From Chiayiivirga flava (GTDB lineage: Bacteria > Pseudomonadota > Gammaproteobacteria > Xanthomonadales > Xanthomonadaceae): a DNA stretch of 64,000 nucleotides. Within the stretch, counting starts at the first letter, position 1. The number at the start of each line of letters is the position of its first letter. Location of the stretch: assembly GCF_014202825.1 (NCBI RefSeq), contig NZ_JACHHP010000001.1, forward strand, positions 124,001-188,000. The letters are read 5' to 3'. This document shows, one piece after another, positions 60,802-63,337 of this stretch. The notes beneath the pieces were generated by a model. The model made no database searches and was not told the DNA's origin. It saw nothing but the letters and a program-made list of their open reading frames with translations. The position numbers and the translations under genes are program-made.

Positions 60802-61203
60802 TCAGGCCGCGCCGCCGTCCACCCGCACCATCGTCGTCAGCAGGTGTTCCATCGCCTGATCGAGGTTGCGGCATTGTCCGCTGTGCACGGGCGAGGTCTG
60901 CACCACGGTGCTGCGCGGCGCGGTGAGCCAGTGGAAGCGTTCGCGCAGCGTCAACGCTCCGAGCGGTCCCGCCTCGCGGCCCCCGGCGCAGATGCGCGGA
61001 ATCGCCGCCAGCGCGTCGGCGACGAACTGCACGTCGATGCCCGGGGCGAGCGCGCGCAGCCGCGCCGCGTCCAGCTCGATGCGCGCCGCGAGGTGCCGCT
61101 GTGCGTGGCACGACACGATGACGCCGACGTTGACGAACTCGCCGCGCTCCACGCGCGGCACCACGCGCACGATGGCATAGTCATACGTGTGCGGAGCGTG
61201 CAC
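60802..61203 (-). CDS. DUF3037 protein, partner of the HipA-like kinase
   Basis: A 133-residue protein starting with YDYAIVRVVPRVERGEFVNVGVIV, the conserved beginning of DUF3037. No active-site signature is known. The GTG start is inside the 3' end of the kinase gene (23-bp overlap), so the two are tightly coupled. DUF3037 genes are commonly adjacent to HipA_2-type kinases (recalled), suggesting a two-component module. A toxin/antitoxin or target-modifying function is inferred only. Confidence 0.8.
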   Translation of the reverse strand: MHAPHTYDYAIVRVVPRVERGEFVNVGVIVSCHAQRHLAARIELDAARLRALAPGIDVQFVADALAAIPRICAGGREAGPLGALTLRERFHWLTAPRSTVVQTSPVHSGQCRNLDQAMEHLLTTMVRVDGGAA

Positions 61204-61984
61204 GCACGGCCTCCTGCACGAAGGCGCGCGGCGCCTCCAGGCGCCGGCAGAAGTACGCGACATAGGCCGCGCGCTGGGCCTCGGGCGTGCCGAAGGCACT
61301 GTCGCCGTCGAGCCAGCGCTCGGGCACCTGTGCCACGATCTCGCGCACGCGGTCCGGATCGAGCATCGCGGCGAGCGCCGCATCGACCTGTTCCAGGCGA
61401 TCGGCGAACGGCAACAGCACGTGGTCGCGCACCAGTGCGAACGGGGCCGTGGCGCGATCGACGATCCGCGCATCCCAGCCGTGGTGGAAATACAGCGCCG
61501 CGCCGTGGTCGATCAGCCACAGGCGCCGATGCCACAGCAGCATGTTGCTGTTGCGCGCGGTACGGTCGACGTTGCTGACGAACGCGTCGAACCACACGAT
61601 CGACGAGGCAAGCGCGCCGTCGGGCTCGACGATGGCCGGATCGAACGTCACCGACCCCGGGAGGTAGTCGAGCGCGAGGTTGAGCCCGGCGCTGGCGCGG
61701 ATCAGCGACTGGATTTCCGGATCGGGCTCGGTGCGCGCGAGCTCCGCATCAAGTTCGACGAACACGATCTCGGGCACCGGCAGGCCGAGCGCACGCGCGA
61801 TCTCGCCCGCGACCAGTTCGGCGACCAGCGCCTTTGGCCCCTGCCCCGCGCCGCGGAACTTGAGCACGTACAGTCCGGCGTCGTCCGCCTCGACGATGGC
61901 CGGCAGCGATCCGCCCTCGCGCAGGGGCGTGACGTAGCGGCTGGCGCAGACGGTGCGCAGCGGACGGAACGGCGGAACGCTCAT
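61181..61984 (-). CDS. HipA-like protein kinase (HipA_2 type)
   Basis: A 267-residue compact kinase. An ATP-contact lysine lies in LYVLKFRGAGQG (Lys42). The catalytic Asp is Asp140 with Asn145 (SNVDRTARNSNM), and the metal Asp is Asp159 (LIDHG). The protein is much shorter than HipA (about 440 residues) and lacks its N-terminal subdomain. It starts with ATG overlapping the monooxygenase stop (ATGA), and DUF3037 follows. No HipB-like antitoxin gene is present. The role, whether persistence, defence or metabolic, is unknown. Confidence 0.82.
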   Translation of the reverse strand: MSVPPFRPLRTVCASRYVTPLREGGSLPAIVEADDAGLYVLKFRGAGQGPKALVAELVAGEIARALGLPVPEIVFVELDAELARTEPDPEIQSLIRASAGLNLALDYLPGSVTFDPAIVEPDGALASSIVWFDAFVSNVDRTARNSNMLLWHRRLWLIDHGAALYFHHGWDARIVDRATAPFALVRDHVLLPFADRLEQVDAALAAMLDPDRVREIVAQVPERWLDGDSAFGTPEAQRAAYVAYFCRRLEAPRAFVQEAVRARSAHV

Positions 61985-63243
61985 GCCGGCATTGTCGCAG
62001 ACCGCGCATCGGCATCCGCATGACGTGCGAGTGTCGCGAGCAGGTCCTCGTGCAGACGCAGGCGGCCGAGCCAGCCACGCTGCGTGCCGCTGAGCACGCG
62101 CAGCATGGTGCCGCGCCCGCCCGGCAGGCGGCCGAGCGGATGGAACAGGCGATCGCGCAGCGCGGCGAGCGTGTCCAGGTCGGACTGGAAGATCGGCGTG
62201 AGCCAGCGGCTCCAGAAATGGTAGATGCCCACGTGCGCACGCCGTTCGCGTTCGTAGGCGCCGAGCGCCTGCGCGACGCACGCGTGCGCCGCGAGTGCGG
62301 CATCGAGCGCCTGCGCATCCATCAGCGCCATGTTGACGCCCTGCCCCAGCTGCGGACTCATCGCGTGTGCGGCGTCGCCCACCAGCACCACGCGACCGCG
62401 ATGCCAGGCGCGCGGTGCGGCGTCGCGGTAGCTGGCGCGCGCCAGCTGCGTCGTGGCCGTCACCTGCGCGAGGCGCGGCAGCACGTCCGGCCACAGCGCG
62501 GCGAGCTCGGCCTTCCATGCGTCGATGCCGTCGGTTTCCCACCCCGCCATCGACTGCATCGGCAGGCTCCAGAAGAAGCTCAGGCGCGGCACCGGATCGT
62601 CGGGACGCGTGCCGACCGGCAGCAGCCCGATCATCTTGCGCGCGGCGAGATAGCGTTGCCGCAGTTCGTCCGCGTGCGGCCAGTCGCCCATCGGCACCAG
62701 GCACCACAATGCGCCCCACGGATACGGCTGGTCGATGCGTGCAGGCCCGGTGGCGCCGCGCAGCGTCGAGGCCGCGCCGTCGGCGACGAGCACGAGGTCG
62801 TACGGACCGAACGCCTCGCCCGTGGCGCTGCGCACGAGGCCGCGTTCCGCATCGACCGCCACCACGCGCGTGCCGCAGCGCACGCCGGCACGTCCCGGCC
62901 ACGCGCGGCCGAGCAGTTCGAACAGCGCTCCGCGCTGGATTCCGACACCGAACAGCCGCGCATCGAGCTCGCTGTAGCGCATGTCCATCACGCAGCGTCC
63001 CGCGCACGTGTCGCCGAACAGCCGGCGCACGATGCGGCCGCTGCGGATCGCATCGTCCAGCACGCCGAGGCCGTGCAGCACGGCCATGCCCGTGGGCTGC
63101 AGCAGCAGGCCGGCGCCGACCGGGCCGAGCATCGGCGCGCGTTCGAACACATCGAGCGCGTGTCCCCGCCGGGCGAGCAGCGCCGCACAGGCCTGCCCGG
63201 CCGTGCCGTAACCCACGATGGCGATGCGCAGCGGATCGGTCAT
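61981..63243 (-). CDS. FAD-dependent monooxygenase (PHBH/UbiH fold)
   Basis: A 420-residue flavoprotein hydroxylase. The FAD-binding IAIVGYGTAGQACAALLARRG is at residues 6-26. The DG motif is in VLVADGAASTLRG, and the GDAAHAMSPQLGQGVNMALMDA motif is near residue 290. It uses NAD(P)H and oxygen to hydroxylate an aromatic or related acceptor; the substrate is unknown. It is the first gene of an operon with the HipA-like kinase and DUF3037, with ATGA overlap to the kinase. The C-terminal about 60 residues are Arg/Ala-rich. Confidence 0.85.
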   Translation of the reverse strand: MTDPLRIAIVGYGTAGQACAALLARRGHALDVFERAPMLGPVGAGLLLQPTGMAVLHGLGVLDDAIRSGRIVRRLFGDTCAGRCVMDMRYSELDARLFGVGIQRGALFELLGRAWPGRAGVRCGTRVVAVDAERGLVRSATGEAFGPYDLVLVADGAASTLRGATGPARIDQPYPWGALWCLVPMGDWPHADELRQRYLAARKMIGLLPVGTRPDDPVPRLSFFWSLPMQSMAGWETDGIDAWKAELAALWPDVLPRLAQVTATTQLARASYRDAAPRAWHRGRVVLVGDAAHAMSPQLGQGVNMALMDAQALDAALAAHACVAQALGAYERERRAHVGIYHFWSRWLTPIFQSDLDTLAALRDRLFHPLGRLPGGRGTMLRVLSGTQRGWLGRLRLHEDLLATLARHADADARSATMPA

Positions 63244-63337
63244 GGCGGCAGGATCGCAGGCGCCGACCACGCCGAACAAGTCGCCTTGGGCGGTGGCGCT
63301 GGCGCCCGCGCCCCGGGGCCGGAACGCTGCGCGTCGC

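Follow-up and report, generated by a model that had tools for sequence, protein, structure and literature searches.

HipA-like kinases have been described mostly as toxins that act in persistence and in phage defence. A pair made of such a kinase and a DUF3037 protein, encoded beside a retron, was reported to defend against phage Bas51; deletion of the kinase abolished this defence, and deletion of the DUF3037 gene was toxic (PMC12548924, available text). Another such system, DS-6, was renamed HipAD; according to the available text of PMC13092281, its defence needs a predicted catalytic residue of the kinase, and its partner carries DUF3037 together with DUF1829 and is predicted to bind the kinase and, less strongly, DNA. 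The same text refers to Brenes and Laub 2025 for the primary description of HipAD. In PADLOC, a HipA_2/DUF3037 pair is listed as the phage-defence candidate PDC-M66. These longer relatives (HipAD, DS-6 and PDC-M66), published as anti-phage, make outdated the statement of an earlier note on this DNA that the two-gene module has no described function. For the compact class that is the subject of this work, no description was found in the literature searched, most subscription journals lying outside it. A pair of the HipAD type is also carried by Escherichia phage PhiR5_1 (L141:2941-4514), where the genes are named HipA toxin and HipD antitoxin and adjoin a cI repressor gene.

Other Hip systems resemble the present locus in part. 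HipBST has a kinase, HipT, without N-subdomain-1, a separate small protein in the antitoxin role and a serine near the Gly-rich loop (PMC8262856, available text). However, HipS is encoded upstream and resembles HipA N-subdomain-1, whereas DUF3037 is encoded downstream in our locus and belongs to another Pfam family, and no HipB was found. The available text of PMC8262856, in which ten Hip kinase families are defined, contains no DUF term. HipBA, represented by HipA of E. coli and S. oneidensis, shares the kinase core fold and the catalytic motifs with our kinase but differs from it by the presence of N-subdomain-1, by an HTH antitoxin, which was not found in our locus, and by gene order, since here the kinase gene comes first.

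The window, that is, the whole stretch of 64,000 nucleotides of Chiayiivirga flava DNA that was analysed, contains a HipA_2-family kinase gene followed by a DUF3037 gene (Table 1). The kinase length of 267 aa, the 23-bp overlap with DUF3037 and the ATGA overlap with the monooxygenase, as given in the earlier note, were exact in their coordinates. The long overlap between the two genes probably entails translational coupling. The monooxygenase was absent among the window's flank matches to 80 other loci, and its overlap with the kinase gene is apparently local to this genome. Pfam-matched neighbours were PhzF-like, von Willebrand-type, sigma factor, UPF0029, ABC transporter, monooxygenase and DAHP synthase proteins. 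The HipB-type HTH family was absent from the monooxygenase and from seven other neighbouring ORFs scanned with Pfam (ORFs of at least 60 aa), in line with the earlier claim that no HipB-like gene is present; the sigma factor was the sole DNA-binding protein among the scanned ORFs.

Table 1. Features of the kinase/DUF3037 locus (positions in the window).
Feature	Position	Strand	Remarks
FAD monooxygenase gene	61981-63279	minus	upstream of kinase
ATGA shared by FAD monooxygenase stop and kinase start	61981..61984	minus	monooxygenase TGA at 61983-61981
HipA_2-family kinase gene	61181..61984	minus	267 aa; ATG at 61984, TGA at 61183-61181
Ser26 in Gly-rich loop EGGS (residues 23-26)	61907..61909	minus	invariant 116/116
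Lys42, ATP-binding lysine (role inferred)	61859..61861	minus	invariant 116/116
Catalytic motif N138-x-D140-R-x-x-x-N145-x-N147	61544..61573	minus	N138, D140, N145, N147 invariant 116/116
Asp159 (LIDHG), metal-binding aspartate (role inferred)	61508..61510	minus	invariant 116/116
Overlap of kinase 3' end and DUF3037 5' end	61181..61203	minus	23 bp
DUF3037 gene	60802..61203	minus	133 aa, single domain; GTG at 61203, TGA at 60804-60802

Profile searches assigned both proteins to the families proposed earlier, each above its Pfam cut-off. The kinase matched HipA_2 (PF20613) with an E value of 3.9e-20 and 72.6 bits (cut-off 27), and its partner matched DUF3037 (PF11236) with an E value of 7.5e-45 and 152.4 bits (cut-off 22.6) over 118/118 positions. 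The kinase also matched the PADLOC model PDC-M66A (E 3.7e-25), and the partner matched PDC-M66B (E 3.5e-11), covering only positions 2-69 of 281. Lys42, Asp140, Asn145 and Asp159, which had been singled out as key residues from the letters of the window, indeed proved invariant over the aligned compact kinases on which invariance was counted. By analogy with HipA and HipT, Ser26 may be regarded as a candidate autophosphorylation site. The closest solved structure to the AlphaFold2 model of the kinase (pLDDT 92.8) was CtkA of H. pylori (Z 16.1, rmsd 3.0 over 211 residues), yet at 14% identity, and the model also matched PI4K type II (Z 13.2) and, over model residues 18-261, HipA of S. oneidensis (Z 10.7-11.0). 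Since the model begins directly at the kinase core, HipA N-subdomain-1 is absent, as had been noted before. A profile search of solved structures with the kinase returned no relative by sequence.

The partner was modelled with a pLDDT of 94. Searches with this model gave no clear solved relative (best Z 3.2 with VIA-align, best E 2 with Foldseek), and the DUF3037 profile matched nothing among solved structures below E 0.7; thus, no mechanism of inhibition can be read from the fold. DUF3037 was considered as a HipS-like domain, for which these structural matches gave no support, being too weak to decide. Ten residues of DUF3037 were invariant (R13, R20, E22, N25, R89, R97, S98, Q102, S104 and H107), and they could equally belong to a ligand site or to a substrate. 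Three predicted viral proteins matched the DUF3037 model at E 8e-4 or better. In addition, two short phage proteins in BFVD, A0A6J5NRF1 (125 aa) and G3MB86 (124 aa), have predicted folds that weakly resemble DUF3037 (E 5e-3 and 5e-2, respectively) and are possible phage-borne inhibitors of such kinases. The InterPro entry that one paper cites for human Focadhesin and plant RST1 is presumably that of DUF3730. As DUF3037 proteins (PMC6711988, available text), these two were dropped as a mix-up of entries.

We then considered relatives of the pair in other genomes. The two genes lay side by side and in the same order in all 80 best relatives (best 80 of 425 confirmed matches, so that figures of identity and conservation are biased upward), although in one of them, L072, the contig ends inside DUF3037. 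The co-occurrence of the two families proposed in the earlier note was thereby borne out, and the two-gene module is genuine, as adjacency in the relatives rules out chance. These best 80 of 425 relatives came from Pseudomonadota, Cyanobacteriota, Acidobacteriota, Abditibacteriota and Actinomycetota, and 70 of them had an overlap of 23 or 14 bp. Over 115 compact loci, the overlap was 23 bp in 71 and 14 bp in 33 when the start nearest the expected place was used; with the most downstream start, 23 bp was still found in 66. An overlap of 11-26 bp, with one common relative frame, was found in 114/115, the sole locus outside this range being an artefact of start choice. DUF3037 started with GTG in 86 of the 115, and the partner was 120-156 aa long with a median of 133, apart from one that a contig end truncates to 71 aa. 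The identical 23-bp overlap is annotated in two Bacteroidota records, and a Streptomyces record has an overlap of 4 bp.

HipAD and the window's pair are alike in having two genes with the kinase first, a DUF3037 partner directly downstream, HipA_2 and the active-site motifs in the kinase, and no HipB. In contrast, HipAD partners are 271-286 aa long (ten examined), whereas that of the window, at 133 aa, consists of the DUF3037 core (118 positions) alone and thus lacks the C-terminal part of about 150 residues of the HipAD partner. The overlap was 4 bp in the five HipAD-type loci measured, compared to 23 bp here. Between the two types, identity was 17-28% for the kinases (mean, 21.9%) and averaged 23.4% for DUF3037 (ten proteins of each type). 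Within the compact type, the kinases were 62.3% identical on average (53-71%) across several phyla, compared to 33.0% (27-48%) for HipAD-type kinases within one phylum; for DUF3037, the corresponding means were 55.6% (ten compact) and 28.1% (ten HipAD-type). The ten HipAD-type pairs comprised nine from our sample of the window's phylum and one from the window's family. Partner length, conservation and distribution thus differ sharply, and the pair of the window belongs to a separate, compact lineage. Because of this sharp difference, a role in phage defence should not be assumed for it as a matter of course.

The distribution of the two types was examined in 398 genomes of the phylum, 31 of which had a HipA_2 match and 23 a DUF3037 match. 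Read from the bit scores, these matches fell into ten compact pairs (kinase 61-80 bits, DUF3037 135-154 bits), seven of them in the window's own family, and nine HipAD-type pairs scattered over the phylum (kinase 180-275 bits, one in two pieces; DUF3037 62-97 bits). The other 12 genomes with HipA_2 had weak, more distant kinases, with a weak DUF3037 match in three, and one more weak DUF3037 match came from a genome in which no kinase was matched. The loci L128-L138 hold a third class of HipA_2-like kinases, more distant than the other two (about 20-55 bits), and there the neighbouring protein matches DUF3037 partly or not at all. Within the window's family (149 genomes), HipA_2 was found in 52 genomes and DUF3037 in 51; by score, these were 50 compact pairs, in the same 50 genomes for both genes, one HipAD type and one kinase fragment. 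The persistence of the compact pair was followed in two related genera of the sample, g30 and g17, which we take to be Stenotrophomonas (in the GTDB sense) and Pseudoxanthomonas. In g30, the kinase was present as a single copy in 51/61 genomes, the ten kinase-free genomes measuring 3.0-3.9 Mb, and DUF3037 was present in 52/61, one being a remote match. In g17, the kinase was present as a single copy in 30/38 genomes, and two of the eight absences were in large genomes.

Both genes are under strong purifying selection: the median dN/dS was 0.087 for the kinase (23 pairs) and 0.119 for DUF3037 (21 pairs), of 24 pairs computed. In a quickly built joint tree with 83 rows, from which L072 was omitted as cut, the 20 rows of Cyanobacteriota (support 98) and the 51 of Pseudomonadota (support 89, branch not starred) each lay on one side of a branch, and the six rows of Acidobacteriota did not form one group and required three changes. 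Over all groups, four changes were counted, which is the minimum possible, compared to a mean of 25.5 after shuffling. Transfer within Pseudomonadota was nevertheless visible, since the window's pair grouped with four gammaproteobacterial bins and not with Lysobacteraceae. A pair from Rudaea grouped with Burkholderiales.

The surroundings of the two types were compared by scanning flanking ORFs with PADLOC models at a threshold of E 1e-15, on small samples with unmatched taxa, some wrong gene calls retained and several models able to match one protein. The 149 ORFs around ten HipAD-type loci matched 156 models, and the matches listed include type I, IIG and IV restriction, Gabija, AbiE and a reverse-transcriptase system. 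In contrast, only four models, one of them that of the kinase itself, were matched by the 143 ORFs around nine compact loci, six of them from the window's family (a tenth, L164, was omitted for its size). A second compact set covered 15 loci of other groups; its 144 flanking ORFs gave matches to 64 models, and the matches listed include reverse transcriptases, PD-T4-6 and RtcR models. The contrast in defence neighbours was thus sharp in the first compact set and weaker in the second. A flank gene was shared by 47/63 locus pairs of the same genus, 29/146 of the same family, 59/1322 of the same phylum and 43/1629 of the others. The window shared a flank gene with 5/80 loci, an ABC transporter in three cases. 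No flank gene was generally shared beyond the genus, and thus conserved neighbours gave no clue to function.

Carriage on mobile elements was considered next. A scan of 2.9 million viral contigs with the profile of the compact kinase confirmed no relative among 15 pattern matches; the control with one HipAD-type kinase likewise gave 0/10, which marks the scan as insensitive. The DUF3037 profile gave two remote relatives from 43 pattern matches in these contigs. Among named phage records, 2/50,697 matched the kinase, at 26% and 35% identity. Matches to the kinase were found in 12/72,556 plasmid records, five of them at 47-54% identity over at least 91% of the kinase. The compact pair of two plasmid-labelled Bacteroidota records (L139 and L140) lies amid ordinary metabolic genes, in L140 near ribD, pyrE and argH, and these labels may reflect misassembled chromosome. 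On plasmid p1 of Leptolyngbya boryana (L143:2962-3634), a DUF3037 gene lies beside an 88-codon remnant of a compact kinase with the 23-bp overlap kept, and an IS110 transposase is found about 1 kb away.

A broken kinase beside an intact DUF3037 gene was also considered as evidence for an antitoxin. This argument was dropped for want of sufficient cases, because many of the in-frame stops flagged in g17 seem, from their ranges, to lie past the natural end of the kinase. G586 was flagged, yet no stop was present within the aligned kinase, and G059 had only a short kinase fragment that appeared HipAD-like by eye. The remaining cases were the compact locus L143 and two of the HipAD type, G154 (split kinase) and G440 (flagged TAG), both with DUF3037 open.

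We favour, at a probability of roughly 0.55, the reading that the pair is a kinase restrained by a translationally coupled inhibitor, DUF3037, and that the cue releasing it is more likely physiological than phage. The free kinase would phosphorylate an essential cell component, growth arrest being the presumed output, and DUF3037, translated right after the kinase by way of the long overlap, would bind and silence it. The module would probably work without repression of its own promoter through the C-terminal part that is missing compared to HipAD. The safest statement is that DUF3037 acts as a coupled inhibitor of the kinase, by homology to the tested relatives; the earlier note had offered inhibition as one role for DUF3037, which fits the toxicity and kinase dependence printed for these longer relatives. 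As to the cue, release by nutrient, stress or translation state would be more likely than a dedicated phage trigger, because the pair behaves as long-resident chromosomal genes. Another role, with DUF3037 as an activating subunit, adaptor or substrate and the pair as a signalling enzyme that is no toxin, would agree with the slow evolution of both proteins, with their strict 1:1 pairing, with their presence in most genomes of the two genera and with the invariant polar residues of DUF3037, including Ser98 and Ser104. We nevertheless judge it quite improbable, since the operon of a longer relative is toxic without DUF3037 (PMC12548924, available text) and since the DUF3037 gene beside a kinase remnant on the Leptolyngbya plasmid, a single case, is easier to reconcile with an inhibitor than with an activator.

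It is also conceivable, if somewhat unlikely in our estimation, that the pair is a short HipAD/PDC-M66 anti-phage system, in which infection lifts the inhibition by DUF3037 and the kinase aborts the infection. The shared pair of families with its shared gene order, the matches to both PDC-M66 models, the phage defence printed for the longer relatives (PMC12548924 and PMC13092281, available text) and the defence-like neighbours near some compact loci would all suit such a system. However, the PDC-M66B match is confined to positions 2-69 of 281, the kinase averages 22% identity to the ten HipAD-type kinases, and in two genera most genomes have retained the compact pair, whereas the HipAD type occurs in 9/398 genomes of the phylum. 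Far fewer PADLOC models were matched around the first nine compact loci than around the HipAD-type loci, the 15 further compact loci lying between them, and the scan of viral contigs, a weak argument given its control, confirmed no relative. Persistence and slow evolution make a resident regulatory role more likely than a system dedicated to defence. Very unlikely, finally, is a selfish addiction module that would act by post-segregational killing without benefit to the cell: the arrangement of the pair is indeed like that of a toxin-antitoxin pair and its surroundings vary beyond the genus, but same-genus loci mostly share a flank gene, the pair occurs as a single copy per genome, absences in the two genera are mainly in smaller genomes, and the tree keeps two large phyla together.

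More tentatively, and with somewhat less than even odds, the compact pair may be an old bacterial signalling module of mainly vertical descent, in which an atypical CtkA/PI4K-like kinase would have DUF3037 as its dedicated regulator, in at least Pseudomonadota, Cyanobacteriota, Acidobacteriota, Bacteroidota and Actinomycetota; HipAD would then be a faster-evolving mobile offshoot with a gained C-terminal region. As the partner of the window is minimal, the unit that binds the kinase is likely to be the DUF3037 core. Pipelines in which any HipA_2 and DUF3037 pair counts as a candidate for phage defence may be lumping together two distinct things. If true, a stable and slowly evolving lineage would mean that such kinases also serve the physiology of the cell, or that defence systems are in some cases fixed.
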